Source: Candidatus Latescibacterota bacterium
Lineage (GTDB): Bacteria; JAAXHH01
Direction: 5' to 3'
Length of the DNA: 64,000 nt
Assembly (NCBI GenBank): GCA_022821085.1
Contig: JAJEEG010000006.1
Location: 2,501,330-2,565,329 of the forward strand
This document shows positions 7,940 through 58,410 of this stretch, piece after piece (position 1 is the stretch's first letter; each line of letters starts with the position of its first letter). The position numbers and the translations under genes are program-made. The notes beneath the pieces were generated by a model. The model saw only the letters and a list, made by a program, of their open reading frames with translations, was not told the DNA's origin and did no database searches.

Positions 7940-10345
7940 ATGATCCACAACTACCTCACCATAGCCATTCGCAGCCTGCTCAGGTATCCCGCCTACACGC
8001 TGATCAACATCGTGGGGCTCGCGATCGGCCTGGCGGCCTGCATGGTGATCCTGCGGTACGTCTGGGACGAGTTGAGCTACGATCGGTATCATCCCCATGC
8101 CGACCGGGTCTACCGGGTCGTCGACGACATAGAAAGCGCCGGGCAGACGGTCCGGACGGCAGGATCGCCCTCGGGATGGGGACCCGCCCTGAAGCGTGAT
8201 TTCCCTGTAATCGAGCTGTTCGCCCGGGTGCGGGGCACGACGTCCGTGTGGTTCATCATGCATGAGGAAAAACGATACTATGAGAAAAAGGTTATCTGGG
8301 CCGATCCGGCCCTGCTGGACATATTTTCCATACCGCTTGTCGCCGGCGATCCCCGCACCGCGCTGACCGAACCGTATTCGATCGTGATCTCGGAGGAGAT
8401 GGCCTTCAAGTACTTCGGCGAAGAGGACCCCATGGGGAAAGTCCTCAGGGCAGACAATGTCTGGGACTTTACGGTGACCGGCGTCATGCGGAACATTCCG
8501 GCAAATTCGCATTTGCGTCCGGGTATGATCATGTCGCTTGTAACCAGGGATGCCCTTTATCCGGATAGCCTGGATGAATGGGAAATGCACGAGAACCGTT
8601 ATACCTACATCAGACTGCATGAAAATGCCGCTCCGGATGACCTGGAAGCGCAGCTGCCCGCCTTCGTGGAACGAAATAAAACAGGCCGTTTCCGCGATTC
8701 GAGCAAAGTGTTGAGACCGTCTCTGCAGCCGCTGGTGGACATTCACCTGCATTCGCACCGGGACAGCGAGCTCGAGCCAAACGGGGATTTCCGCTACGTG
8801 GCGCTCTTCCTGGTCATCGCGTTCCTGATCCCCCTCATCGCGTGCATCAACTTCGTGAACCTGGCCACGGCCCGGTCGGCCATGCGCGCCAGGGAGGTAG
8901 GTGTGCGCAAGGTGATGGGGGCCAATCGGTTTCAGTTACTCGGTCAGTTCCTGGGTGAGGCCGTCCTCATGACGGGGCTAGCCATGATCTTGGCGGTCGC
9001 GCTTGCACATCTCGCCCTTCCCGGCGTCAACGCGCTGGCCGGCAAGCAACTGGACTTTGCCTTGTCGAATGGTTGGGTGCTGGGCACGCTCGCGGCCGGT
9101 ACCCTCGTGATCGCATTGGCCGCCGGCAGCTATCCCGCGGTCTACTTGTCGGGGTTTCTGCCCACCGAAGTACTGAAAGGGAGTTTGAAGTCGGGAACGC
9201 AAGGAATGGGACTGCGGCGGACCCTGGTGGTGATCCAGTTCGCCATGTCCATCTTCTTGCTGGTCAGCACCGCCGTCATCTACGACCAGCTCGAGTACAT
9301 CCAGGACATGCGGCTCGGGTTCAACAAAGAGCATGTCATGGTGATCCCGATTACCGGAGCGGTTCAGCGTGAAAGCACCCAATTGCTGAGACAACGCCTC
9401 GCACAAATGCCGGGCGTGGTCGGTATGGCGACGACCGATGGCGTCCCGGGCGAACAATCACCGCGGATCATGGCCGTCCGTTCCGATAAGATGAGCCCGG
9501 AGGACAACCTGATCGTGTCCGTGTTCTCATCAGATGACCAGTTCCTGGAGGTCATGGAAATCGGCCTCGCGGCAGGCCGGAACTTTCCGGTCGAGTTGGC
9601 CATGGATACCACCATGGTAATCCTGCTGAATGAGACCGCCGCCCGTAAACTGGGCTGGGAAGCTCCGCCCGACGCGATCGGCATGCTCGTGGAATGGATC
9701 GAGTACCGCGGTACGAAAGGACGCGTCCGGGGGGTCATGGAGGATTTCCACCTGCAATCGATTCATGAGGAAATCGAACCGATCGTCTTCATACACTATC
9801 CCTACGACTTCAGTGACATACTCATTCGAATCGGGCCGGAGAACCTGACGGATACCATCGCCCGGATTCAGGAGGTGTGGCGGGAAGTCGATTCCGTCTA
9901 TCCCCTGGCCTACACGTTCCTGGACGAGGATTTCGACAACCTCTACCGTGCCGAACGACAGCTGGGTACGGTCTTCGCGGTCTTCGCCTTTCTCGCGATC
10001 TTCGTGGCGTGCCTGGGTCTGCTTGGACTGGCTTCCTTCTCGATTCAGCAGCGGACCAGGGAGATCGGCATCCGCAAGGTACTCGGCGCCGCCGTTTCGG
10101 ACATCGTCCTGCTGCTCTCGAAGGACTTCATGAAGTATGTCCTGCTGGCCAATGTGATCGCCTGGCCGCTGGCGTACCTCGCCATGGCGCAATGGCTGCA
10201 GAACTATGCCTATGCGGCGGGAATCAACTTCGCGTGGTTTGTAGCGGGTGGTCTCGCCGCGCTGGCCATCGCCTGGCTGACGATCGGTGCGCATGCGCTG
10301 GCCGCGGCGGGGAGGAACCCGGTGAACGCGCTTAGGCAGGGGTGA
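7940..10345 (+). CDS. MacB/FtsX-type ABC transporter permease
   Basis: 801 residues with two MacB_PCD/FtsX modules in tandem, each a periplasmic domain plus membrane helices. The N-terminus, LTIAIRSLLRYPAYTLINIV followed by GLAIGLAACMVILRYV, is typical of the large permeases common in Bacteroidetes and Acidobacteria. The first FtsX block has RAREVGVRKVMGA (about residues 320-332) and the second has RTREIGIRKVLGAA (about 710-723). These proteins partner a LolD-like ATPase and drive mechanotransmission across the envelope, for efflux or lipoprotein handling. No ATPase gene is adjacent. The end of the gene, NPVNALRQG, is repeated in the same frame beyond the stop codon. Confidence 0.88.
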   Translation: MIHNYLTIAIRSLLRYPAYTLINIVGLAIGLAACMVILRYVWDELSYDRYHPHADRVYRVVDDIESAGQTVRTAGSPSGWGPALKRDFPVIELFARVRGTTSVWFIMHEEKRYYEKKVIWADPALLDIFSIPLVAGDPRTALTEPYSIVISEEMAFKYFGEEDPMGKVLRADNVWDFTVTGVMRNIPANSHLRPGMIMSLVTRDALYPDSLDEWEMHENRYTYIRLHENAAPDDLEAQLPAFVERNKTGRFRDSSKVLRPSLQPLVDIHLHSHRDSELEPNGDFRYVALFLVIAFLIPLIACINFVNLATARSAMRAREVGVRKVMGANRFQLLGQFLGEAVLMTGLAMILAVALAHLALPGVNALAGKQLDFALSNGWVLGTLAAGTLVIALAAGSYPAVYLSGFLPTEVLKGSLKSGTQGMGLRRTLVVIQFAMSIFLLVSTAVIYDQLEYIQDMRLGFNKEHVMVIPITGAVQRESTQLLRQRLAQMPGVVGMATTDGVPGEQSPRIMAVRSDKMSPEDNLIVSVFSSDDQFLEVMEIGLAAGRNFPVELAMDTTMVILLNETAARKLGWEAPPDAIGMLVEWIEYRGTKGRVRGVMEDFHLQSIHEEIEPIVFIHYPYDFSDILIRIGPENLTDTIARIQEVWREVDSVYPLAYTFLDEDFDNLYRAERQLGTVFAVFAFLAIFVACLGLLGLASFSIQQRTREIGIRKVLGAAVSDIVLLLSKDFMKYVLLANVIAWPLAYLAMAQWLQNYAYAAGINFAWFVAGGLAALAIAWLTIGAHALAAAGRNPVNALRQG

Positions 10346-37167: not shown

Positions 37168-38226
37168 TTACCATTTCTCGGGATTCAGGCCGACCCGGAT
37201 CCCGGCCTCCTTCATCTGCTGCCAAGTGGTGTCGTCGATGCTGATCCCTTCCTCCCGGCGCTTCGCCGCCAATCGAAACTCCGGTTCGCCCGGTATGAGG
37301 ATCTCGTCGAATCCCGGTGCCGTCCGGCTGGCTTTCACGTGGCGGATCAGTCCCTCGACTTCCTCGTAGTACCAGTCCAGGTCCGAAAAGAACGAAATGT
37401 CGTAGACGGTGAAGAGCACCCCATTGCTCGATACGGTCTGCTCGCCCTGCGCGCATCCCTGGCCGCTCAGCGAGCCGCCGAGGATCTCCACGAGCAGGCC
37501 GAGACTGTAGCCTTTGTGGGCGACGATGCCGCCCATGGGCAGGATCGCGCCGTTGGGCGGCGGTCCCTTTATCACGGTCGGATCCGTGGTGGGATTTCCT
37601 TCGTGGTCGATCAGCCAGCCTTCGGGAACCCGCACGCCCTTGTTCGCGGCGACGCGCACCTTGCCCTCCGCGACGACGGAAGTGGTCAGGTCCACCATGA
37701 CGGGATCGTCGTTCCGGCGAGGGGCCGAGAACGCGATGGGATTGGTGCTGATGCGCCCGTCGATGCCGCCGAAGGGCGGGATCTGGCGTCCGAACCGGCC
37801 CGCGTTGACGAAGGCCAGTCCGATCAGGCCCTCCCGGGCCGCCATGAGCGGATAGGCGCCCACGCGCCCCACGTGACTGGTGCGCCGGAGGGTAACCGTG
37901 GCCGTGCCGTGCGTGCGCGCCTTCTCCATGGCCAGTTGCATGGCGACGGTACCGCCTACCTGGCCGAGTGCGCCGCCGTTGTCGACCACCGCCGTACAGG
38001 GACTTTCCCGTACGACCCGCACTTCGGCCCTCGCTTTGAATCGACCCTCGTCCATGATGGCCTTGACGTATTCCGGAATTCGAATGGCGCCGTGGGAATC
38101 GTGGCCGAAGAGATTGGAATCCACGAGGTGGTCCACGACGCTGCGGGCGTCTTCCGCCGTGCAGCCGGCTGCCTCCATCACTTCGCAGCCGATTCGATGC
38201 AGTTTATCAGGGGAAATTACTGGCAT
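37168..38226 (-). CDS. Ldh/MDH2 family malate/lactate-type dehydrogenase
   Basis: 352 residues. The family is recognised from SNLFGHDSHGAIRIPEYVKA, GGTVAMQLAMEKARTHGTAT, RRTSHVGRVGAYPLMAA and KGYSLGLLVEILGGSLSGQG. These NAD(P)-dependent oxidoreductases act on malate, L-lactate, sulfolactate, ureidoglycolate or 2,3-diketogulonate. The central histidines at GHDSHG and the SHVGR segment are the usual catalytic region. It is the last gene of the cluster that starts at 49270, 140 bases after the D-2-hydroxyacid dehydrogenase gene. Co-occurrence of two 2-hydroxyacid oxidoreductases suggests a hydroxyacid is formed or consumed by this cluster. Confidence 0.85.
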   Translation of the reverse strand: MPVISPDKLHRIGCEVMEAAGCTAEDARSVVDHLVDSNLFGHDSHGAIRIPEYVKAIMDEGRFKARAEVRVVRESPCTAVVDNGGALGQVGGTVAMQLAMEKARTHGTATVTLRRTSHVGRVGAYPLMAAREGLIGLAFVNAGRFGRQIPPFGGIDGRISTNPIAFSAPRRNDDPVMVDLTTSVVAEGKVRVAANKGVRVPEGWLIDHEGNPTTDPTVIKGPPPNGAILPMGGIVAHKGYSLGLLVEILGGSLSGQGCAQGEQTVSSNGVLFTVYDISFFSDLDWYYEEVEGLIRHVKASRTAPGFDEILIPGEPEFRLAAKRREEGISIDDTTWQQMKEAGIRVGLNPEKW

Positions 38227-38366: not shown

Positions 38367-39401
38367 TCATCTCCTGAATCGCTCCAGTTTCCTCTTCAGT
38401 CCCGGACGTTCGAGCACCGCCCGGTTGACCACGTAGGGAGGTTCTTCTCCCCGGGAGACGGCCAGGGCCGCCTTCATGCAGTCGTGCCCGATATCGCGAA
38501 ACAGCTCGTGGGTCCAGCACGAAGCGTGAGGCGCCAGGATGACGTTGGGAAGGGACAGCAGGGGATCGTCAGCGGCAGGCGGTTCCTGCTCGAAAACGTC
38601 AATGGCCGCGCCTGCTATCCATCCCTCCTGCAACGCCTGCTCCAGCGCCTTCTGGTCTACGATGGCGCCACGGGCCGTGTTGATCAGGAAGGCGTCCTTG
38701 CGCATCATGCGCAGCTCCCGCGGACCGATCAGGTACCGTGTGTGCTCGTTCAACGGACAGTGGATGGTGACGAACGTACTGCGCTTGAGCAGCATTTCCC
38801 GGTCCACCTTCGTAACGCCCAGTTGCGCGGCCTCCTCAGCAGACACGGCGGGATCGGAGACCAGGATTTCGGACGGCTCGAAGGGCGCCAGCATGCGCAC
38901 CACCTCGCGGCCGATCATGCCCATGCCGATCAGGCCGACCACGCGGCCCCGGATCTCGCATCCCATGTGATCGAAACGGATGTCCCAGTCGTCGTTCCGT
39001 ACGATGGCGTCCTTGATCGTCACCCGGTGGCAGAGACCGAGTATCAGGGCCATCGTCGCGCTCGCCACGGGTCTTCGCGTGGCCTCGGGGGTGATCGTCA
39101 CCATGACGTCCGCTTCCGTCGCGGCGTCCATATCGATCATATCGTAGCCCACGCCCGTTCGGGCGATGAGCGACAGGCGCTCGATGCCCGCGAAGGACGC
39201 CGGCGTGTAGGATTGCCCCATGGATATCACCGCGTCGAAACCGGCGAGCTGATCGGGAGTGGCGGGACTCAGGTCCTCCTCCAGGAAGGCGTGGGAGACC
39301 CCGGCTTCATCCAGCAGATCGACGCCGAAATCGTCGAACACGACCCCGCCGCCGGGACCCAGCAGGTCGGCGACCAGGGCTACGCGGAATTCGTCGGTCA
39401 T
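38367..39401 (-). CDS. D-isomer-specific 2-hydroxyacid dehydrogenase
   Basis: 344 residues from ATG 39401; a GTG 15 bases upstream gives a slightly longer version. The NAD-binding fold has RGRVVGLIGMGMIGREVVRM with the G-x-G-x-x-G pattern, the catalytic arginine region LINTARGAIVDQKALEQAL, and the histidine in VILAPHASCWTHELFRD. The family reduces or oxidises D-2-hydroxyacids such as glycerate, lactate or phosphoglycerate. The gene starts 47 bases after the membrane protein gene upstream. The substrate is unknown; the cluster includes an amidohydrolase that could supply a deacylated hydroxy- or amino acid. Confidence 0.87.
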   Translation of the reverse strand: MTDEFRVALVADLLGPGGGVVFDDFGVDLLDEAGVSHAFLEEDLSPATPDQLAGFDAVISMGQSYTPASFAGIERLSLIARTGVGYDMIDMDAATEADVMVTITPEATRRPVASATMALILGLCHRVTIKDAIVRNDDWDIRFDHMGCEIRGRVVGLIGMGMIGREVVRMLAPFEPSEILVSDPAVSAEEAAQLGVTKVDREMLLKRSTFVTIHCPLNEHTRYLIGPRELRMMRKDAFLINTARGAIVDQKALEQALQEGWIAGAAIDVFEQEPPAADDPLLSLPNVILAPHASCWTHELFRDIGHDCMKAALAVSRGEEPPYVVNRAVLERPGLKRKLERFRR

Positions 39402-39448
39402 AAACTGTCCGTTCACTCTTTACATTCGTCAGGCCAGGATCCGGGACG

Positions 39449-41524
39449 TCAGAACAGGATCTGGGACGTGGACTTGGCGATCAGCACCAGCGAGACGGCG
39501 GCCATGCCGATCAGTCCCAGGCCGCACCCGTACCCGGCGAGGATGACGGGCGCGTAGGCGCGCCATCTTTTTTCTCCGTAGCGCCGGCCGAAATAGAACC
39601 GGCCCAGCATGGCGCCGATGAACGTGGGCAGCGTGTAGTGTATCCAGGCACCCGTACCCAGTCCGGCCACCAGGCCGTAGAACAGCAGCGGCGGCGCCTT
39701 GAGCAGGCTCAGGACTCCGTACAGAGCCACCGTGAACCCCATCCCGGCGCCGATGTACTCCCACTTGATGAGTTGCCCGATCACATCCGATCCGCCCGGC
39801 AGCGTCGACTTGATCCAGATCGTTTCCATCGTGGCCTGCAGCGGCCACATCTTTTCGACGAAGGGATAGGCCGCGGACGGTATGGGCGCCAGTTTCCAGA
39901 TCAGGGCATAGAACAGGAAACTGAAAACGATGAGCAGCAACAGGCTCAATATATACAGTTTGACCAGGCTTGGAAATCGCGTTCGGGTGAGTTCCAGCTG
40001 CCGGAAGGTCGACACGACGCCGCTGTGATCGAAGAGCGGAACCGGGGCGAACCAGATGGCCACGCCCTTGTAGCCCGACAGGTAGAAGGAGCCCTCCCTC
40101 GCGTAGGGGAAGGATGATCCGTAGGGCGAACCCGTGAGGCCGATCATGCGCGCGCCGATGTAGGAAAAGAAGGGCGTCCACAGGAACCCGAATACCAGGG
40201 AGATCCATACCGGGAACGAAGGTTCGAGATAATAGACCAGGAGGATGAAGCACAGGGTCGAAACCGCCCAGAGCGCGATGGGGATGGGCAGCCTGAAATC
40301 ACCCCGGTCCGGCGGCGGCCGGCGGGGTCCCCGGGCACCGGATGCGCCGTCCGGGTCTCGCCTGAGGGCGCGGGCGAAGGCGACCAGGCCGATCAGACCG
40401 ATGACCATAGAAGTACCGATAGAGGAAAAACTCAGCCAGAAATCGATGGTATTGTTGATAGAGGTGGGGATGGTGCTCATCCCCGGCGCCCAGCTGTGCA
40501 ACAGGCCGAAGTGGTAGAGGGCCGGATTGGCGATGAAGGTGACCACGAAGGAACTGATAAACGTGCCGACCACGATCCAGAAGGGCAGGACGAACCCCAC
40601 CAGGAGCGTGGCCATGTCCGTGCCGATGCCGATGGGCGACGCGGGCAGCACGTCTCTTACCCGCGGCGTGAAATCCGCGAAGGGAATGGGGAAGACCTCC
40701 ACGCCCTTGGTCAGCACCACGCCCGAAACCGTCGGGACGACCACGTAGAGTATGCCCCAGCCCAGGCCGATCATGGCACCGACGGTGAACAGGCGCCATC
40801 GCCAGGTCTCCTCGCCCGCCGACGATTCCGCCAGCGCGGTGGCGCCGGCCGCCTGTACGGGCGCCAGGGGAAAGGGCAGGCGCTCGGTGTCCGCCGTGAT
40901 GCGGAAGAGCACGTAACCCAGCGAAAGGGCGTTGACCAGGCCGAGGATGGACACGAGGATGGCCAGCAGAATCGGCTCCAGCCACTCCATGGAGAAGAGG
41001 GTCCGGGTGATCAGGGAATCGGATCCCCGGGGCGGCGAAACCCACTGGGGCAGAAGCTGGGCCAGGCCGTCCGCCTGGGGGGACTGGATCAGGTACTGGA
41101 ACCAGATCATCTTGGCGAAAGGCGCGCCGTGCACCGATGATCCGGCGGCCATGCCGCTGGCGCCCAGGCCCGTTGCCGCCAGGCCGGCGGCGAGCCAGTA
41201 GAGGATGATGGCTTCCTGGGGCTTCAGCTTGATGAACAGGCGCTTGCCGATCTCGATGAACATGATGATGGTGACCCATTCCGCGGCGCCCGCGAAACTC
41301 TTTCCGGTCACCAGTTCCAGGTAGATCGACCCCGGAAGCATGACCAGCCCGACGAAGAAGGCGGCCCAGATGATCCGGCTGCTGAAACCGTCCTCGTAGG
41401 GCAGGCTGTCCGGCACGATCTGCCACCGGTCGTCCTGTCCGGCGGCCACCGCGTCCTGATCCCGCGCTTCAGCCTGACGCGACCGCTCGCCCCGATCCTG
41501 ATCTTCTCGCCTGGTGTCACTCAT
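39449..41524 (-). CDS. polytopic membrane protein, DUF6785/OPT-like transporter
   Basis: 691 residues with about 14 hydrophobic segments. A charged N-terminal tail of about 35 residues precedes the first helix (RIIWAAFFVGLVMLPGSIYL). Other recognisable stretches are EWVTIIMFIEIGKRLFIKL, EAIILYWLAAGLAATGLGAS and SLGYVLFRITADTERLPFPL. The last resembles conserved parts of two other membrane proteins in this window (47276-49270 and 56089-58086), so I take them as distant paralogues. Transport of a small peptide or organic acid is suspected from the OPT-like length and the adjoining amidohydrolase, 4 bases upstream. The function is not proven. Confidence 0.6.
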   Translation of the reverse strand: MSDTRREDQDRGERSRQAEARDQDAVAAGQDDRWQIVPDSLPYEDGFSSRIIWAAFFVGLVMLPGSIYLELVTGKSFAGAAEWVTIIMFIEIGKRLFIKLKPQEAIILYWLAAGLAATGLGASGMAAGSSVHGAPFAKMIWFQYLIQSPQADGLAQLLPQWVSPPRGSDSLITRTLFSMEWLEPILLAILVSILGLVNALSLGYVLFRITADTERLPFPLAPVQAAGATALAESSAGEETWRWRLFTVGAMIGLGWGILYVVVPTVSGVVLTKGVEVFPIPFADFTPRVRDVLPASPIGIGTDMATLLVGFVLPFWIVVGTFISSFVVTFIANPALYHFGLLHSWAPGMSTIPTSINNTIDFWLSFSSIGTSMVIGLIGLVAFARALRRDPDGASGARGPRRPPPDRGDFRLPIPIALWAVSTLCFILLVYYLEPSFPVWISLVFGFLWTPFFSYIGARMIGLTGSPYGSSFPYAREGSFYLSGYKGVAIWFAPVPLFDHSGVVSTFRQLELTRTRFPSLVKLYILSLLLLIVFSFLFYALIWKLAPIPSAAYPFVEKMWPLQATMETIWIKSTLPGGSDVIGQLIKWEYIGAGMGFTVALYGVLSLLKAPPLLFYGLVAGLGTGAWIHYTLPTFIGAMLGRFYFGRRYGEKRWRAYAPVILAGYGCGLGLIGMAAVSLVLIAKSTSQILF

Positions 41525-41528
41525 CGGC

Positions 41529-42686
41529 TTACTCGGTCCTTATGTAGTCGCCCGCCTTGTCCCAGTCCGGCCGCGTCAGGCCGTTCAGGTCCCAGACCAC
41601 CTCGCCGGCCCGCACCGTCAGCAGGCACCTCAGCCGCCGGTCGCCGCGCATGCGCGCATGGCCCGTGTCCACGAAACCGAATTCTCCGTATTCCAGCTCC
41701 AGCACGGCGACGTCCGCCTCCGCGCCGATGCTCAGCGTACCCAGTTCGGGGCGCCGGATGGCGCGGGCGGGGTTGCGCGTGGAGCGCATGACCACGTCCT
41801 CCAGCGTCATCCCCATGTTCAGGCATTTCGACATGGTCGTGTTCATGCTCGCGTTCGGCATCAGGGCGCTGTACTTGTGGAGGTCTGTGCTGATGGTATC
41901 CGGCAGGAACCCCTGCTCGATGGCCGGCACGGCGATGCGGAACCAGAAGCTGCCGCCGCCGTGGCCCAGGTCGAACAGGATGCCCTTGTCCCGCGCCTCC
42001 CGGACGTAGTCGTTCACCCGGCCGTGCTCGTCCAACAGGGGGATGTGCTGCGCGTAGAGGTGCGTATGAATATCGCCGGGGCTCAGCTTCTTCAGCAGCA
42101 GGTCCCGGTAGCTGCGGGTCGGCTTCGGCGCGAAATCGATCATGGCGATGGTGCCGCTGCGCCGGGCCGCCTCGACGGCGCCGTCCACCGCCTCCCAGCC
42201 CGGACCGCCGAAATGGGCGGTCTTGGACCCCACCACGTGTTCCGGGTACCTGCTGATCATGTCCGCGCAGGGCACCGGGTCCATCTCCGAAACGTCCTGC
42301 TCCACAGCGCCTTCCATGCCGGCGCCCACGATGTTGATCAGGGCCAGCACGCGGGTAACGGACTCGGCGATGACCGTGTCCTTGAAGTCTTCGAACTTCT
42401 TCCAGCCCGCACCCCCCGTATCCAGCACCGTGGTCACCCCGTTGGGGAGCACGTGGGCGTCGGGAAACACCCAACCCCGGTACCCGCCGTAGGCGTGCAT
42501 GTGGATGTCGATCAGCCCGGGCGTGACGTAATGGCCGTGGACGCGGGCGACCTTCCGGCCGTGTTCCGCCGGGATGTCGTGCTCCACCGCCGCGACCAGG
42601 CCGCCGTCGACGGCTACGTCCCGACTGCCGTTGATGCCGTTCTCCGGATCGATGACGTGGCCGCCCTTGATGATCAGATCGTACAT
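41529..42686 (-). CDS. amidohydrolase/deacetylase family metallohydrolase
   Basis: 385 residues. The family signature is the first metal site VTPGLIDIHMHAYGGYRG (HMH near residue 62), then GAGMEGAVEQDVSEMDP, a candidate carboxylated lysine in VGSKTAHFGGPGW, HTHLYAQHIPLLDEHG, FDLGHGGGSFWFRIAVPA and the catalytic aspartate region TISTDLHKYSALMPNAS. This matches the EF_0837/AHA_3915-type deacetylases related to dihydroorotase and D-aminoacylase. These cleave N-acyl or cyclic amide bonds of amino acids. It lies between the permease fusion gene (19 bases upstream) and a membrane protein gene (4 bases downstream), within a catabolic cluster. Confidence 0.85.
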   Translation of the reverse strand: MYDLIIKGGHVIDPENGINGSRDVAVDGGLVAAVEHDIPAEHGRKVARVHGHYVTPGLIDIHMHAYGGYRGWVFPDAHVLPNGVTTVLDTGGAGWKKFEDFKDTVIAESVTRVLALINIVGAGMEGAVEQDVSEMDPVPCADMISRYPEHVVGSKTAHFGGPGWEAVDGAVEAARRSGTIAMIDFAPKPTRSYRDLLLKKLSPGDIHTHLYAQHIPLLDEHGRVNDYVREARDKGILFDLGHGGGSFWFRIAVPAIEQGFLPDTISTDLHKYSALMPNASMNTTMSKCLNMGMTLEDVVMRSTRNPARAIRRPELGTLSIGAEADVAVLELEYGEFGFVDTGHARMRGDRRLRCLLTVRAGEVVWDLNGLTRPDWDKAGDYIRTE

Positions 42687-42705: not shown

Positions 42706-45700
42706 TTACAGGGCCGTGTGGCGATCGAAAGCCCTGATGTCCCGGTACCGCGCCTTGATCGGCTCGGCGAGGGTCCGCCACACGAGAAACCGCTTCCTCA
42801 ATACGGTGAAGAACCGCCGGTTGATCGTCTGCCATTGCGCCAGGTCTCCGCTGCGGCGGTGGATCACGATCAGGATGCGGTACAGTCTCTCGTGGAGCAC
42901 GGGCTCCAGTTCTAGCCGCACGTCCTGGCTGATGGCGAGGTCGTACGGCGCCAGCCAGACGGTCGACGCTACGTGATACGTGTCGTAGGTATCCCCCGGT
43001 ATCGCGTCGAGCGTGGTCCCCTCGGCGACGAAGTCCTCCGCCGAACTGTCTTCGTGCGTCTGGAATATGTGGTTCAGGTAACCCGACAGCGGCAACGCTT
43101 CGGGGACGGTCACCGTGAACGGGAACTCGAAGCGCCAGTCGTCTTCGTCGGGCGGCGGGGGCGACCAGCGCCGCGTCACGTCCTCTACGGTCATGTCCGC
43201 GGCCTTCTTTGCCGGGTAGAGGGTGGACAGGAAGACGATGGCCATGACGACCATCGTGGCGTATACGGTCGACAGGGAGGAATAGTTGAGCGACATGCCG
43301 CCCAGCAGGTCGAATTGCGAGAGCCCCATGGTGATGATCTGGCCGGCAAGGTATCCGAATACGGCCCCGAGGGTCGCGAACACGGCGGCTTCGGCGATGA
43401 ACAGGGCGGCGACGTGGTTCGGCGCCAGGCCGACCGCGCTGTAGACACCGATTTCCCGGAACCGTTCGAACACGGCGCCCATCATGGTGTTCAACACCAG
43501 GAACGCCGCGATGAGCACCGGGATGATCAGGTTGGCCAGGCCCGAAACCGAGGTGGCGCCGAGGGAGCTGTAAACCCTCACTTCGTCTTCCATGCCGACG
43601 AACACGGCCAGGAGGACCCGCGACATGAAGGCCTCCACGGAATCGCGGAGCTGTTCGCCGCCGGCGAACCCCGCGATGGCCACGGACCGCGTGGACCCGT
43701 TCAGGTCGAGCGTCTGCCGATAGGGCAGGACCAGCACGTTGCGGGACGGCAGGTGCTCGGAGGCCTGGATGGTGGACATGAACACCTCGATGTCCATATC
43801 GGTCAGGGCCCGGGTCATGGAGAAACTGGCGGGCATGATACTTTCGTCGTCCATGTCCCGGTAGGCGTCGAATCCTTCGGAATCGAGCAGGCCGATCACG
43901 GTATATCGTCCACCGAGGATCTCCACCTCCGCCGTACCCACGTCCTCCGGTCCCACGTTCAACCGCTCGGCCAGTTCCGTGGGCAGCAGGCAGGCCGCCC
44001 TTTCGTCCGGGGCGAACCACCGTCCTCCCGGCACCAGGTAGCGGTCCAGGCCGGTGACGGCCGGTTCGCCGGCGTGCAGTCCCAGGATGGACTGTACCGT
44101 GGTGGCGGTCCCTTTGCCCGGCGCGCGCAGATCGATATAGGGACTGGTCATGTCCTCCGGCTCGTACCAGGACCGGGGTACCACGTCCGCCTGGTCTTGG
44201 AAGGCGTTCTCCACGTAGGGCAGGAATGAAGTGGGCAGGGAGTGCCACGACAGGCTGCGCATGAGGACGCCTTCGTACGGCGGGGTGTTCTCGCGGTCCA
44301 GCGTATAGAACTGGATACCGGTCCTGAAAGAAGTGAAGGACAGCACGGTGAAGGTCAGCAGGGTCAACGTGACCGCGGTCAGCGCCGTGCGCATCTTCCG
44401 CTTGCGCAGGTTCGATATCCCCAGGGAAATGGCCACGGCCGTAGCGCTCAGCCGGCCGATATCCGCCTCGTGGAGGCCAGCCGCCGACCGGGTCAGGTTC
44501 TTCATCTCGGTGTCGAACCGGGTGACGATCATGGTGATGATGATCAGAGCCATGGCCAGGATGATGAAGGCGAGAAAGACCATGTACGGCGTCAGGCTGA
44601 GTTGAAAGGCGGGGTGCACGTTCTGCAGCAGCATGAAGACCGCCGCGAAGATGACGCCCACCGAGGCCAGCCGCTTCCGGATGTCCGTGAATCCGAAGAA
44701 AAGCCGCTCGAGGAAGAAACAGAAGGGAACCAGCAGCATGAAGTAGAACACGATGCCGTCCACCGTGTCGTCCGCGGCGTACCGCACGTCGGGATAGGCC
44801 CGCGCCTCGAAACCCCACGCTTCCCTCGACCGTGCGGCGAAGGCGTCGTAACGGCGGCTTTCCAGGGCCTCCCGGGCGGCCCGAAGCGCCTGAGTGCTTT
44901 CCTCGTGGAGCTCGGCGGCCCGGGCGTTGGTCACGCCGTGGTCCTCCAGTTTCATCAGGCGGGCCCGGTTCAGCGACCACAGGTCCAGGGCGCTCTGGTA
45001 GAAGGGGTAGAGGATCAGGCCCTGGTCCGCCGTGAATCCCCGTCCCTGGGCCTGGGCCATGGCCTCGTCGGAGATACTTTCCGGCGGATCGTCGAGCCAG
45101 GACTCCGGCGTGTTGGTCAACAGGTACTTGACGCCCCGCGGACCCGAGCTCATGAACATCTTGACCCGGTCCTCGGGCCGGGCGAAGACCACCGCGGCGT
45201 TGGTCATCCAGTTACCGAAGAAACTCTGGTCTTCCACGAAGGCCGCGCCGTACTTGCGCAGCGGACTGTTGTCCCGGCCGAGCACGGTCAGGTTGTCGAG
45301 GGCGACGAAAACGCCGGGGTCCACGATATCGAAGAGGTTGATCTCCTCGCAGGGGAAGAGGACCTGGATGGTATTGTTCACCTTTGCGGCGTTCGGCACG
45401 GCCAGGGGGAAGGTGGCGTCGCCCTCTTCGCCCAGGTCCGGGGCGTACACGATCCGTCCGTCGGCGCCTAAGCCGTAGCTGCGCAGTTCCGTCGGTCCTT
45501 GGGGGAACCGGATCATGGACATCCGGAAATGCCCCATCGAGTCGGCGTGGGTAACCATGAACCCCCGCACGCCGCTGTGGCTCTGGTATCCGGGCTCGTA
45601 GACGACCAGGGCATCGGATACCGGGGTATTGGGCTTGAAGAAATCCACCGTGCGGTCGAATTCGAGGACCCGGCCTTCGATGTCGCGGCCCTCGTCCTTG

Positions 45701-47274
45701 AGCCGTATCGAATCGTCGACGTCGAAGGCCTCGGGGTCGGAAAGCATGGCTGGGAGCAGGGTGCCGAGGGTCCGGACCTGCCGGACCAGGTTCGGAAAAT
45801 CCACGTACTCGATCCGGTCCTTCGGGGTATCGATGAGGAGCCTGTTGTCGTTCGCCGTGGCGAAGGTCATGCCGTGGAGTCCGGCGAGCGTGACCATCTC
45901 GTGGTCGAAGGCGGGACCCGCGGGCATGTAGCTTTCCTGCGAACGGAGCGGGTGCGTCAGCGTGTTGAGGTAGGGCGTTCGGCTTTCCTCTTCATCGTGG
46001 ACCCCGGCCTTGCGCGCGTAATTCAGGTACCGGTCCGCGTAGGGTTCATACAGGAGGTCCAGGTTCGAAGTGAAGAAGATGTAATCGCCATAGCTGAACA
46101 GGCCGACCTGGTCCGACCTGCTTGTGAGGTCCAGGCCAAGGAACAGGGCGAAGGGAATCCGGTCCGCTTCGGGGATCCGTTCCAGGAAGAAATCGTCCTT
46201 CCGCTGGTGGCGGTCCAGGAAGTCGTTTATGCCCTGCAGCCCGTGGAAATGAGCGGACGTGGCCAGAAACAGTACGGTGTATCCCGGCGGATGGGCCCGG
46301 AGCACTTCCATCAGCTCCAGCATGGCGGCGATGCCCCCCGCGCTCTCGGCGCCCGGCGCCAGTCCGGGCACGACCGACATGGCGTCGTAAAACGCCGACA
46401 GCACCACGATCCGGTCTTTCCATTTCTCCGTGCCGTCGCCCCCCGGCAGCGGTTCGTCGCGTCCCGGTATCCAACCCATGACGTTCCAGGTCTCGGCCCG
46501 TTCCCACGTCATGCGTCCCCGGATCGTCACTTCGGCCTCGCCGGACCGCGCGGCCGCCAGGACCATCGCCGCATGCTGGTCCGGGACCCAGAAACGCGGC
46601 ACGTCGGCGGGCACGTCCAGGATCTTGCGCTGGGCCTGGTTGTTGGTCACCGCGCCGGGACCGTTGTCGTAGAACAGGACAGCCTGCGCGCCGAGCATCC
46701 GCGCGTTGAGATACTGGTCGCGCCCGTCGAAATCGACCAGGACGATGCTCCCCTCGATCTCTTTCCCGTTGAAGGCCTGGAATTCGCCCCGCCGGCCGTA
46801 GTGCAGGGGGCCCCGGATCCCATCCGGAAAGGAATTCAGCCGCACCAGGTTGGGCCAGAACTGGTACACCGGTATCTCGGTCTCCACGGAGTCGTGCACG
46901 GTCAGCGTGAAACCATGGTCGACGGGAGAGGAGACCGTGAAGGTGTCGACGGCGACATCGGCCAGGCCGCCGGCATGGAAGGCATCGGCCACGTATTCCA
47001 TGGCCGCCCGGTTTCCCGGATATCCGACGACGCGCGACGGGTTTTCGCTCATCGCCCGGACATGGGCCTCCACTTGTTCCAGGGTGACGATTTCGGCAAC
47101 ATCTTCCCAGGACACCGGCGCTTTCTCGAGGGGCCTGGGCGGCACGTCCTCGGGAAGGGAGACGATCCTCAGTATCACGTGCTCCGTCACCCAGGCCGGG
47201 CCGGCAACGGCCACGGCGAGGAACAACAGGACGCCCACGGCGAGGAAAAAGTAACCGAATATCCGAGAATACAC
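42706..47274 (-). CDS. degenerate M28 peptidase-like domain fused to an FtsX-type permease
   Basis: 1522 residues. After an N-terminal helix (residues 8-28), residues 60-350 resemble an M28 aminopeptidase with a PA insertion (about 165-250; EGSIVLVDFDGRDQYLNARM). The expected metal ligands are altered: the AHYD histidine is phenylalanine (SAFYD, F295), the GADDN stretch is GAESA (E310), and the EE pair of the catalytic site is HF (H342, F343). From about 890 there are membrane helices followed by an FtsX domain with FERFREIGVYSAVGLAPNHV (about 1295-1314) and a soluble C-terminal part of about 150 residues. The peptidase part looks inactive and may bind peptide or sense a ligand for the permease. 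Confidence 0.7.
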   Translation of the reverse strand: MYSRIFGYFFLAVGVLLFLAVAVAGPAWVTEHVILRIVSLPEDVPPRPLEKAPVSWEDVAEIVTLEQVEAHVRAMSENPSRVVGYPGNRAAMEYVADAFHAGGLADVAVDTFTVSSPVDHGFTLTVHDSVETEIPVYQFWPNLVRLNSFPDGIRGPLHYGRRGEFQAFNGKEIEGSIVLVDFDGRDQYLNARMLGAQAVLFYDNGPGAVTNNQAQRKILDVPADVPRFWVPDQHAAMVLAAARSGEAEVTIRGRMTWERAETWNVMGWIPGRDEPLPGGDGTEKWKDRIVVLSAFYDAMSVVPGLAPGAESAGGIAAMLELMEVLRAHPPGYTVLFLATSAHFHGLQGINDFLDRHQRKDDFFLERIPEADRIPFALFLGLDLTSRSDQVGLFSYGDYIFFTSNLDLLYEPYADRYLNYARKAGVHDEEESRTPYLNTLTHPLRSQESYMPAGPAFDHEMVTLAGLHGMTFATANDNRLLIDTPKDRIEYVDFPNLVRQVRTLGTLLPAMLSDPEAFDVDDSIRLKDEGRDIEGRVLEFDRTVDFFKPNTPVSDALVVYEPGYQSHSGVRGFMVTHADSMGHFRMSMIRFPQGPTELRSYGLGADGRIVYAPDLGEEGDATFPLAVPNAAKVNNTIQVLFPCEEINLFDIVDPGVFVALDNLTVLGRDNSPLRKYGAAFVEDQSFFGNWMTNAAVVFARPEDRVKMFMSSGPRGVKYLLTNTPESWLDDPPESISDEAMAQAQGRGFTADQGLILYPFYQSALDLWSLNRARLMKLEDHGVTNARAAELHEESTQALRAAREALESRRYDAFAARSREAWGFEARAYPDVRYAADDTVDGIVFYFMLLVPFCFFLERLFFGFTDIRKRLASVGVIFAAVFMLLQNVHPAFQLSLTPYMVFLAFIILAMALIIITMIVTRFDTEMKNLTRSAAGLHEADIGRLSATAVAISLGISNLRKRKMRTALTAVTLTLLTFTVLSFTSFRTGIQFYTLDRENTPPYEGVLMRSLSWHSLPTSFLPYVENAFQDQADVVPRSWYEPEDMTSPYIDLRAPGKGTATTVQSILGLHAGEPAVTGLDRYLVPGGRWFAPDERAACLLPTELAERLNVGPEDVGTAEVEILGGRYTVIGLLDSEGFDAYRDMDDESIMPASFSMTRALTDMDIEVFMSTIQASEHLPSRNVLVLPYRQTLDLNGSTRSVAIAGFAGGEQLRDSVEAFMSRVLLAVFVGMEDEVRVYSSLGATSVSGLANLIIPVLIAAFLVLNTMMGAVFERFREIGVYSAVGLAPNHVAALFIAEAAVFATLGAVFGYLAGQIITMGLSQFDLLGGMSLNYSSLSTVYATMVVMAIVFLSTLYPAKKAADMTVEDVTRRWSPPPPDEDDWRFEFPFTVTVPEALPLSGYLNHIFQTHEDSSAEDFVAEGTTLDAIPGDTYDTYHVASTVWLAPYDLAISQDVRLELEPVLHERLYRILIVIHRRSGDLAQWQTINRRFFTVLRKRFLVWRTLAEPIKARYRDIRAFDRHTAL

Positions 47275-47275
47275 G

Positions 47276-49270
47276 CTAGTCTATCCCGTAGATATGATGG
47301 CCCGCATGGGGAAACCACACGTAGTCGACGAACATGGAGATGACCACGCCGGTGACCACGCCGAAGATCAGGCCCAGGAAGAAGGGCTGTCCCTTCCGGT
47401 ACAGTTCGATGCCGCCGACCCACATCATGATGCTCTTGATGACCCAGCACACGAACATGGACGAGACGATCGCCCTGGCGGGCCAGGAGTATGAAAGGAA
47501 GAAGCCGAGGGGATGCAGCGGCCAACCCGGCAGCCGGGCCCTCAGCGTCATGAGCAGAAACATGAGTGCACCGCCCACCATGAAGAACATCAGCCGCGAC
47601 GTGTCCGGTCCGAAGGGATCCCGCATCTTGGTGAGCGTTTCGTTGTAGGGGATGGTCGATCCGATCCGGCCGAACCACCAGCCGTTGGTGAACTGGCGCG
47701 TGCCCTGGTCGAACCCCAGGTAGATCGTCCAGACCAGCGAGATCACCACGCCGATCACCGCGGCGGTCAGAAGCGACCAACCCAGGCCGCGCTGCCAGCG
47801 CGTGCCGATCTCGGACAGCTTGGCCGCCTGCATGAAGGCGGGCATGAAGGTCGACTTGATCTCGCTGACGGGTCCGTACGTCTGGGCCATGGCCGTCATG
47901 GTAGACATGGACAGGTTGGCCGACCCCACCGAATAGAACACGAGCACCTGGGCGATCATGGGCGAACGCACATAGGGCAGCCCGGCCTCGGCGATGATGC
48001 GGGACACCCCGATGTAGATGATGAATACGCCGGCGAGGAGGAACACGGCGATGGGCACGCTCATACCCAGCTGGTTCAGCCAGACCACCCCGTAGACGAA
48101 ACCTCCGATGAACCCGAAGACCGCGACCCGGTAGGGCAGCATTTCCTCCGAATCGTCCAGGTCCGACCTGCGGCCGAAGGCCTGGGAGCACACGGCGCGG
48201 ATGTGAAACCGCGCCCGCCAGAGCCCCCATCCCACGAAGAGGATGAACGCGCCCATGTTCTGCCAGTCCAGCATGGGATGGATCGAGGTGTAGTTATCCC
48301 GTCCCGGGATGTCGTACCCGATCCGGTGGGCGATGCCCACCTGGATGATCCCGATCATGTAGAACACCCAGAAACCGGCGAGGACGTCCAGGTTGACGAA
48401 ATAGGAAATGCCCAGGATGGCCGGGCGGAAGTTGATTTCCAGCGGGGGAAACCCTTCGCCGAACACGATGGGCGGGGCCGACCCGAAATAGGGGAACTGG
48501 GGCACGACCGGGGTGAAGAACCCGACGATGTTGTACATCATCACGCAGAACGGGATCGAAAAGCCGATCCAGAACCGCTTCTCCGAGAGAAAGGCCGGGA
48601 TACGGCTCGGCGATTCCATGCCCCGGGTGAAGGCGAGGGGGATCTGCATCATGGGAAAGACGAGTTTCTCGTGTTCGACCCACTGCCGCCTGAGGATGAC
48701 CACGAGACACAGGCCCATGAAGATGATCGGGACGATGAAGGTCAGCCACCAGAACAGCGGGATGCCCCACACGCTCCAGGGAATGGACGCGCCGGGCGGT
48801 ATGCCGTCCACCAGCCAGGTGAGGGCGTTGCCCTGGTTCGTGACGTTCGCCCAGGGCTGCAGGTACGGGTAGAAGTACTCGGCCCACTGGTTCTCGGGCG
48901 TCGCCAGCAGATAGGGGGCCATCAGCGTGGAGATGAACGGGGCGCCCATGCCGTTGGTCGTCAGCCCCGATGCCGCCATGCCCATGACCAGGGGGATGAC
49001 GAACTCGTGGGGCGTGAGGGCCCAGTCCTTCTTCCACCTGGCCAGCACCACGTTGAATACGACCAGGTACCCAAAGGCCAGAAACAGCGCGCCGATGTGT
49101 AGATGATCAGCGCCGAGCTGGGACGAGGCCATGGTGTACTGGAAATAGGGGACGATGAGGGAGATCAGGACGACGCTCAGCAGGCCCAGGAGAATGGAAC
49201 GAGGCGTAATGATCCGGGTCGCGGTCGCGCGGACAGCGGAGGCGGAAACACTTTGCTGTACTGAGGCCAT
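47276..49270 (-). CDS. polytopic membrane protein, DUF6785 family
   Basis: 664 residues with about 14 membrane helices. Conserved segments include MASSQLGADHLHIGALFLA, GMAASGLTTNGMGAPFISTL, GIPLFWWLTFIVPIIFMGLC and ILRRQWVEHEKLVFPMMQIP. The last is shared in altered form with the protein at 56089-58086 (ILRKQWIERERLTFPLARVP), so these two are clear paralogues. The family has no established function known to me. The gene heads the minus-strand cluster, and the fusion protein gene starts 1 base after it. Two 13-base direct repeats, TTCTCCGCCCACT, lie just before its start, where I see no good ribosome site. Confidence 0.68.
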   Translation of the reverse strand: MASVQQSVSASAVRATATRIITPRSILLGLLSVVLISLIVPYFQYTMASSQLGADHLHIGALFLAFGYLVVFNVVLARWKKDWALTPHEFVIPLVMGMAASGLTTNGMGAPFISTLMAPYLLATPENQWAEYFYPYLQPWANVTNQGNALTWLVDGIPPGASIPWSVWGIPLFWWLTFIVPIIFMGLCLVVILRRQWVEHEKLVFPMMQIPLAFTRGMESPSRIPAFLSEKRFWIGFSIPFCVMMYNIVGFFTPVVPQFPYFGSAPPIVFGEGFPPLEINFRPAILGISYFVNLDVLAGFWVFYMIGIIQVGIAHRIGYDIPGRDNYTSIHPMLDWQNMGAFILFVGWGLWRARFHIRAVCSQAFGRRSDLDDSEEMLPYRVAVFGFIGGFVYGVVWLNQLGMSVPIAVFLLAGVFIIYIGVSRIIAEAGLPYVRSPMIAQVLVFYSVGSANLSMSTMTAMAQTYGPVSEIKSTFMPAFMQAAKLSEIGTRWQRGLGWSLLTAAVIGVVISLVWTIYLGFDQGTRQFTNGWWFGRIGSTIPYNETLTKMRDPFGPDTSRLMFFMVGGALMFLLMTLRARLPGWPLHPLGFFLSYSWPARAIVSSMFVCWVIKSIMMWVGGIELYRKGQPFFLGLIFGVVTGVVISMFVDYVWFPHAGHHIYGID

Positions 49271-56088: not shown

Positions 56089-58086
56089 CTACCAAGTCTC
56101 CACGATGTGGCCGGAATTCGGAAACCAGATCACATCCACGCCATAGGAAAGCGCCACGCCCAGTACGTAACCCACCAGCATGCCGATGAAGAAGGGCTGG
56201 GCCTGGTGGTAGAGCCTCGTGCCGCCCAGTTTCATGATCAAGGCCTTGATGAGCCATACGAGGAAGATCGAGGTGGCGATCATCCCGATGCCCCAGGTCT
56301 TGGCCACCGCCCATCCGATGGGGTGCAGCGGCCACCAGTGGAAATTGTGATGGGCGAGGATCAGCAGCCAGGCGACGAACGCGCCGACTCCGAGGCCCAG
56401 GTACTCGCCGCCGGTCAGCTGGGTCTGGTTGTTTATCCACGTCGTCAGCGTCACGAATCCGTTTTTCGCGTTGCCGAAGGCGTCCCTGAACCCGTCCGCC
56501 CCCGTGGTGTCGTAGCCCAGAAAGATGGTGTAGACGACCGATATGACCGCGGCCATGACGAGCGCCGAGACGATGACGGGGAATATGCCGCGCCTGGCGC
56601 CGCCGACTTCGTCTCCCATCTTGTTGACATGGGCCATGGCGCACATGCCCAGCGTGCGCCAGTTCCTCGAGAAGGTCTGCGACAGGGTCAGGATGGTAAG
56701 GTCCGCCCGATGCAGGTTCGCCGATCCGAAGGAGAAAACGGTGAACTCGTGGGCGTTGTAGGGCAGGTCCAGGTTGATCAGTCCGGCTTCCGCCACCACG
56801 CGGGTGACGCCGAGAAACAGCAGCATGCACGTGGCCAGCAGCGTGGCCGCCGCGGCGAGGGACATCCCCATGCTGACCAGGAAGAAGAACATGTAGATTA
56901 CGCCAACAACCACGCCCGCCAGGGCGGTCCGGTACGAGAAGAACTCGCCTGAATCGTCGATGTCCTGTCCCCGTCCGATGGCCTTCCTCACCACGTCGTA
57001 CAGGTGTCGCCGGGCCATCCAGAGGCCGAAGAGGGTGTACATGAAGAAGCCGCCCAGGTGCTGGGCCGTAACGATCTCGGTCGTCTTCGGAATGCCGAAC
57101 CGGCTCATGATGCCGATCTGGATCGTGGCCAGCAGGAAGAACACCCAGATGCTGAACAGGATATTCAGGTTCGTGAAGAAGCCTATGCCGATGAATGCGA
57201 AATTGATCTTGAACTGAATCGGCGGAAAGGATTCGGCCAGGGTGATCGGTATGCGGTAATCCCCGCCCAGCTCGATGGGAGGCACGACGTCCCAGTACGA
57301 AACGATGTTCCACAGAATGACGAAGAGGGGGATGGAGAAACCGTACCAGAATACCCTGGACCGGGCGATCCGGGGAAGCACGGAGCCGCTTTCGTCATCC
57401 TCGACGAGCAGCAGGGGCACGCGGGCCAGCGGGAAGGTCAACCGCTCCCTTTCGATCCACTGCTTGCGCAGGATCACCATGAGCGATGCGCTGGCGAAGA
57501 AGAGGGCCAGGAAGAAGGTGCCCCACCAGCTCATGGGGATGACCCAGTCCCGCCAGGGGATGACGCCCGTAGAAGGCAGGCCCTCGTAGAACCAGTGCAC
57601 GGCCCGTCGTTCGTCGGTGACGACCAGCCAGGTCGGCAGGTACTCGAAGAACAACTCGACGTATCTGTTCTCGGAATTGGCGTAGTAGTGGGGGATGGAG
57701 GGCACGGCGACCCAGTAAGTGGTAAAGGCCCACCCCGGAATGGCGGAGGCCGTAAACACGATGAAGAAGATGATGATCAGTTCCGGCGCGGTGAAAATCC
57801 GCGTTGGCGCGAAACGCTTCAACAGGCCGTTGATGACGAATACGACCAGCATGAAGGGAAAGAGCGCCGCCATGGGCATGTGGGTTATGGAGAGGTAGGA
57901 GGAGTGGGCTTCGAAGGCGGAATGCACCACCCACCACGCCATGAGCGCGGAGAGTCCCAGGCCCAGGCCCACGGCCCGGAGCGTCATGCCCGACGCCAGC
58001 CCCTCATGTCGGGCGGGAGCGCCCCCTCCGGGAGGCTGGGCATCCGGCTTTCCGGACGGCGCGGAAGACCGCTGGCGTACGCTCAT
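56089..58086 (-). CDS. polytopic membrane protein, DUF6785 family
   Basis: 665 residues from the ATG at 58086; the frame extends 54 codons further into a repeat-rich region and that part looks non-coding. It has about 14 helices and is a paralogue of the protein at 47276-49270: WIERERLTFPLARVPLLLVE corresponds to the same block there, and the ends (GVALSYGVDVIWFPNSGHIV and VVISMFVDYVWFPHAGHHIY) also match. The biochemical role of this family is unknown. Length and topology are those of a secondary transporter. The rhodanese gene follows downstream on the same strand by about 117 bases. Confidence 0.68.
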   Translation of the reverse strand: MSVRQRSSAPSGKPDAQPPGGGAPARHEGLASGMTLRAVGLGLGLSALMAWWVVHSAFEAHSSYLSITHMPMAALFPFMLVVFVINGLLKRFAPTRIFTAPELIIIFFIVFTASAIPGWAFTTYWVAVPSIPHYYANSENRYVELFFEYLPTWLVVTDERRAVHWFYEGLPSTGVIPWRDWVIPMSWWGTFFLALFFASASLMVILRKQWIERERLTFPLARVPLLLVEDDESGSVLPRIARSRVFWYGFSIPLFVILWNIVSYWDVVPPIELGGDYRIPITLAESFPPIQFKINFAFIGIGFFTNLNILFSIWVFFLLATIQIGIMSRFGIPKTTEIVTAQHLGGFFMYTLFGLWMARRHLYDVVRKAIGRGQDIDDSGEFFSYRTALAGVVVGVIYMFFFLVSMGMSLAAAATLLATCMLLFLGVTRVVAEAGLINLDLPYNAHEFTVFSFGSANLHRADLTILTLSQTFSRNWRTLGMCAMAHVNKMGDEVGGARRGIFPVIVSALVMAAVISVVYTIFLGYDTTGADGFRDAFGNAKNGFVTLTTWINNQTQLTGGEYLGLGVGAFVAWLLILAHHNFHWWPLHPIGWAVAKTWGIGMIATSIFLVWLIKALIMKLGGTRLYHQAQPFFIGMLVGYVLGVALSYGVDVIWFPNSGHIVETW

Positions 58087-58410
58087 GAGACGGGTCGCTT
58101 GAGGGAATGGAAATAACTGGATCTGCCGGTCGATCGCCGGTCGATCGCCGATCGGCCACCGGTGAATAACCGGCCGTTCACCGATTATCCACCGGCCGTT
58201 CACCGGCCGTTCACCGGCCGTTCCGGGATGCGCACAATGTATCTGCATGGCGGGGTCCGATCAAGGACTAAAACGGCTGCCGGCGGGCCGCGGGCAGGCC
58301 GCGGACAGGCCGCGGGAACGCGGCTGTTTCCCTTGACACCGGCCCTCGCGCGCCATACCATGGACGAGGTTTTCAGGCCGTTGTTTTCCCGCGGAAAAAG
58401 GACCGTTTTC
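58087..58410. other. 324-base divergent gap, repeat-rich
   Basis: Between the leftward membrane protein gene and the rightward epimerase gene. The left part (58117-58225) is filled with short GC-rich repeats, described separately. The right part contains an AAGGA ribosome site for the epimerase gene. No clear promoter consensus or gene is visible. Confidence 0.55.
58117..58225. repeat. short GC-rich repeats
   Basis: Several copies of CGGTCGATCGCC-type units are followed by four copies of an 11-base CCGGCCGTTCA-like unit. These are probably simple slippage repeats in a promoter-containing gap. Confidence 0.8.

Follow-up and report, generated by a model that had tools for sequence, protein, structure and literature searches.

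In a stretch of 64,000 nucleotides from a Candidatus Latescibacterota genome (hereafter the window) we found a gene at 42706..47274 on the reverse (-) strand encoding a protein, here termed M28-FtsX, which our structural comparisons identify as a permease of the type VII ABC (MacB) superfamily fused to an ectodomain of M28 aminopeptidase fold. As judged from the aligned sequences, the canonical dizinc site of M28 enzymes is gone from this family. A type VII ABC build in which the permease carries a fused pseudo-peptidase ectodomain and is strictly tied to an OPT-like transporter would be new, and in the open-licence literature searched we found neither the architecture nor the parts of the system together described. 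The gene is one intact open reading frame from a GTG at 47274 to a stop at 42706 (1522 aa). Same-genus genomes encode the protein at 90-96% identity, and at full length where the contig allows. M28-FtsX is therefore considered a real gene, and this conservation ruled out a chance reading frame or a fusion created by frameshift or assembly; the single 1522-residue chain with an FtsX part that a first-pass annotation had reported is thus genuine. Two paralogues, 1542 and 1574 residues long, are encoded elsewhere in the genome of the window. Named relatives were mostly metagenome-assembled genomes filed under Candidatus Latescibacterota, some of them labelled Gemmatimonadetes, and also included members of the Omnitrophota.

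Pfam recognised M28 (1.2e-9), PA (8e-6) and FtsX (1.2e-13) domains in the protein as well as MacB_PCD below its cut-off (1.9e-5); the Pfam positions are smaller by one than those in the 1522-aa numbering followed below. All parts of the chain given below are encoded on the (-) strand. Hydropathy over the family indicated an N-terminal signal or membrane anchor at aa 5-23 (47206..47262), and a few paralogues carry a lipoprotein-like signal with a Cys at the N-terminus. The M28-fold domain, without the canonical dizinc site, follows at aa 49-515 (45730..47130) according to an AF2 model, VIA-align and a table of site residues, and contains a PA-type insert at aa 168-214 (46633..46773; PF02225). 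The AF2 model of the M28-fold part reached pLDDT 90.1 and pTM 0.89, and its best structural match was 1AMP, an aminopeptidase of Vibrio/Aeromonas (VIA-align Z 28.1, 2.6 A rmsd, 269 residues). Together with the PA match this bore out the earlier view that fold and PA domain had been retained. Towards the membrane the AF2 model showed a beta-rich middle domain and a helical stalk (aa 516-836; 44767..45729), for which a Pfam search matched no family. In one clade (L052:7076-14356 in G054 and relatives of 2400-2550 aa) the protein is larger (about 2430 aa), carries a LysM match close to its N-terminus and has an insert of several hundred residues within the M28 domain.

The fold as well as the HxD and GAxD loops of 1AMP and of BSAP (6HC6), and the PA insert of the latter, are recognisable in M28-FtsX, but both enzymes retain the dizinc site and the M28-FtsX family does not. 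With reference to 1AMP, where the ligands are H97, D117, E152, D179 and H256 and the catalytic Glu is E151, we compared 97 distinct relatives including a non-redundant subset of 52. The canonical set was found in none of them (0/97 and 0/52), so that the loss of the canonical site extends to all homologues compared. The alignment placed the three changes that the first-pass annotation had listed for the window's protein exactly where it had assumed them: F295 stands at the His of HxD, GAESA (308-312) at the altered GADDN aspartates, and H342-F343 at the catalytic Glu-Glu. Across the family the H97 equivalent is Tyr or Phe in 81 of the 97 relatives and His in 16, the H256 equivalent is not His in 83, and the E152 equivalent is Phe, His, Tyr or Gly in all 97. 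The only canonical dizinc ligand kept is the equivalent of D179, D382 (Asp in 95/97, Glu in 2/97). A refinement concerns the GAESA loop, which is one residue shorter than GADDDASG and in which E310, at a position acidic in 87/97, may stand in for the bridging Asp (D117).

Several other positions of the pocket were conserved. Tyr296, Asp297 and His342 were invariant in all 52 non-redundant members, which argues for a pocket under selection; His342, at the place of the catalytic Glu, was His in 97/97, and E459 was kept in 92/97. The former M28 pocket thus looks repurposed rather than decayed. It is possible that E310, H342, D382 and E459 form a repurposed metal site with some hydrolase activity, and the M28 domain might then still be an enzyme that hydrolyses a peptide or amide at a rebuilt mononuclear site, with the ABC motor feeding or exposing the substrate. 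The conservation of these residues is in line with this reading, and His342 alone is no proof of lost activity because PDB entry 2ANP is, by its title, a functional mutant of the same fold with the same Glu-to-His exchange (E151H; Bzymek 2005, as cited in PMC3426542 and PMC4320195). A type VII system that serves a hydrolase also exists in E. coli, where YbbAP works with the periplasmic hydrolase-fold protein TesA (PMC12646458); TesA, however, is separate and active, whereas the M28 fold described here lacks the canonical site and is fused to the permease. The E151H enzyme moreover retains its whole dizinc site, which no M28-FtsX member does, and the loss of the E152-type ligand in all members and of the H97 and H256 types in most is a stronger argument for lost activity than His342. 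We therefore regard a surviving enzyme as unlikely.

An M28 fold without the canonical active site is known from nicastrin, where it serves as a receptor or structural ectodomain, and likewise from nicalin and transferrin receptor 1, both of which were among the sequence-profile matches of M28-FtsX. Unlike M28-FtsX, these three proteins are eukaryotic, have other partners and are not fused to an ABC permease. A receptor role of the M28-FtsX ectodomain would give bacteria a counterpart of nicastrin and the transferrin receptor, in which the M28 fold is kept as a receptor.

Hydropathy and AF2 helices placed three extra membrane helices ahead of the FtsX core (aa 837-916; 44527..44766). The first-pass annotation had proposed a fusion to a mechanotransmission permease with a membrane part from residue 880; the type of permease was right, and the membrane part begins at about 837. 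Since three helices separate the periplasmic M28 domain from the core, the N-terminus of the FtsX part should be cytoplasmic, as in MacB and LolC, and the loop charges (RKR after the first extra helix, none after the second) fit this topology. The core itself (aa 942-1363; 43186..44451) was delimited by the Pfam FtsX and MacB_PCD matches and by VIA-align and comprises TM1, a large MacB-like periplasmic domain, TM2-4 and a coupling loop in which ERxREIG is kept as ERFREIG (aa 1270-1276). It aligned with HrtB, MacB, LolC and FtsX at VIA-align Z 12-16. Core and ATPase were nearest to LolCDE and MacB, although all NCBIfam scores for LolCDE, MacB and YbbA stayed under the curated cut-offs (26 bits versus 473 for LolC and 966 for MacB). 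VIA-align further delimited a cytoplasmic C-terminal domain (aa 1376-1503; 42766..43149) that is conserved in the family and whose likeness to helix-grip proteins (Aha1 / Bet v 1) is weak, with Z values of 8.7-8.8 near background. The system shares the four-helix FtsX core, MacB-like periplasmic domain, ERxREIG loop and LolD-type ATPase with MacB, LolCDE, HrtBA and FtsEX, but adds to them a large N-terminal M28-fold ectodomain, three membrane helices, the cytoplasmic C-terminal domain, and OPT-like and PqqD-like partners. A duplicated permease of the ADOP type was ruled out, the M28-FtsX chain having a single FtsX stretch. The window's genome contains 41 FtsX matches, and an orphan ADOP-like permease with two FtsX domains and no adjacent ATPase is encoded at 7940-10345 of the window.

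In distant lineages (G053, L182, L189 and others) the M28-FtsX gene is followed by genes for an OPT-like protein, a protein family here called c47, a PqqD-like protein, a short FtsX protein of 220 aa and a LolD-type ATPase. A TPR protein is often encoded ahead of M28-FtsX, and several of these operons also carry a GAF-GGDEF gene after the ATPase. The ATPase is 67-81% identical across lineages and, in 73 of 87 genomes, lies on the same strand within 3.0-11.0 kb of the permease (downstream in 72). The genome of the window has c47, PqqD-like, short FtsX and ATPase genes in a separate block on contig 1 (about 2077372-2080369), some 460 kb away. As this block is not adjacent, the pairing of permease and ATPase rests on orthology here, with 77-80% identity to the ATPases of the distant operons. 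In the large f42 clade no short FtsX gene was found next to that of the ATPase, so a permease heterodimer is not general. Members of the c47 family (L204:6665-7555, L208:11432-12370) have about 300 aa in two similar-looking halves (GWxGI...P..W) and were found only with the M28-FtsX system; a Pfam search gave no relative, and a profile search against known structures gave none at E 1. Homology of c47 to the C-terminal domain of M28-FtsX was rejected (hhalign probability 0.8%).

A phylogenetic profile was compiled from 385 genomes around G054, with E 1e-110 or better as threshold for ATPase orthologues. The M28-FtsX permease occurred in 90 genomes and the OPT-like protein in exactly the same 90, accompanied by the ATPase orthologue in 87 and by c47 in 85, while at the thresholds used none of the four was detected in the remaining 295. 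The assemblies of the three genomes that have a permease and no ATPase (G114, G134, G140) are fragmentary and 61-79% complete. In three others (G065, G066, G123) all four genes are missing, yet relatives at genus or family level carry them, a pattern that suggests joint loss. Some 80 of the 90 genomes with the permease are related to each other, so that the number of independent lineages is smaller, about nine family-level groups, and a Fisher value computed over these genomes should not be taken for a probability; the eight outside the large clade all have permease, OPT-like protein and ATPase. Operon structure and phylogenetic profile thus identify the LolD-type ATPase as the predicted cognate partner of M28-FtsX, the ATPase that the first-pass annotation had still to find. 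A TOBE-type ATPase is encoded upstream of paralogue C (L040:4223-6229) but was rejected as partner, since it is an importer ATPase of the MalK/PotA type and does not recur next to other family members.

The partner genes also bear on the question whether the machine transports at all. Ligand binding by the pseudo-peptidase might regulate the cytoplasmic side (the C-terminal domain, the PqqD-like protein and, in some operons, the GAF-GGDEF protein) without transport, like BceAB or FtsEX, a reading we consider improbable. Non-transporting FtsEX is counted among type VII systems in PMC7668044 and PMC11627006, and both the conserved C-terminal domain and the GAF-GGDEF genes after the ATPase would suit a signalling device. 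The GAF-GGDEF gene, however, was present in few loci overall, in contrast to the OPT-like transporter, which was always present. The conservation of a multi-gene system with OPT-like and PqqD-like proteins shifts the likely role from the pure sensing first envisaged towards ligand capture or transport.

Our preferred reading, to which we give an even chance, is a type VII ABC machine that has a pseudo-aminopeptidase as its receptor and an OPT-like permease as its partner, and in which a peptide-like ligand would be bound and handed over. The periplasmic part would be a former M28 aminopeptidase that has lost its dizinc site and kept the groove as a putative binding site, where a peptide-like ligand might be bound without being cut. 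ATP hydrolysis by the dedicated LolD-type ATPase would move the membrane helices and with them the periplasmic domains, and this movement could pass the ligand to the OPT-like permease, which would be an obligate partner as it is present wherever the system is. All parts are presumed to form one complex. A peptide-like ligand was chosen because of the recurring peptide theme of aminopeptidase fold, OPT and PqqD, which is circumstantial. OPT proteins can work without ABC partners, which counts against this explanation, and the PqqD-like protein would be just as compatible with a role in biosynthesis. To our knowledge a strict OPT-like partner is no part of LolCDE or MacB systems. In the genus of the window, permeases and OPT-like genes number three each against a single ATPase orthologue, and these copy numbers suggest one energy block common to several modules. 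A new kind of ATP-assisted importer, in which a single block of LolD-type ATPase, short FtsX, PqqD-like protein and c47 serves exchangeable modules of pseudo-aminopeptidase permease and OPT-like protein and a dead peptidase is thus the receptor of a secondary transporter, is rather unlikely in our estimate.

In the window M28-FtsX belongs to a run of genes on the (-) strand whose spacing ranges from one to about 140 bases. Directly upstream, after a gap of 1 bp, a DUF6785/DUF6784 permease is encoded (47276..49270; Pfam 5.8e-110). Downstream follow an amidohydrolase/deacetylase (41529..42686; PRK09237-like, 371.9 bits versus an NCBIfam cut-off of 371, and Pfam), which separates M28-FtsX from the OPT-like transporter of 691 aa (39449..41524), a D-2-hydroxyacid dehydrogenase (38367..39416; Pfam 3.1e-54) and a malate/L-lactate dehydrogenase of the Ldh_2 family (37168..38226; Pfam 4.5e-107). 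The OPT-like assignment is based on family matches to PF03169, which were obtained for four of nine relatives (best 1e-10) and not for the window member itself; a profile search of the family against known structures found none at E 1. Permeases of the DUF6785 type were encoded near 51 of 101 M28-FtsX family loci and are probably remote relatives of the OPT-like family (hhalign 79% over 561 columns). Several families to which no role has been assigned (DUF6785, the OPT-like family and c47) can now be tested as components of a single machine, in lineages of which few members or none have been cultured. Downstream of paralogue B, several genomes (at L042, L043 and related loci) carry a sugar-isomerase-like gene together with genes resembling those for pyrR, pyrB and dihydroorotase, all named by eye. 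DUF6785/DUF6784 permeases, two of which are encoded in the window (47276-49270 and 56089-58248), occurred in 15 copies in the genome of the window and in none of 14 control genomes, and they possibly constitute a large lineage-specific transporter family.
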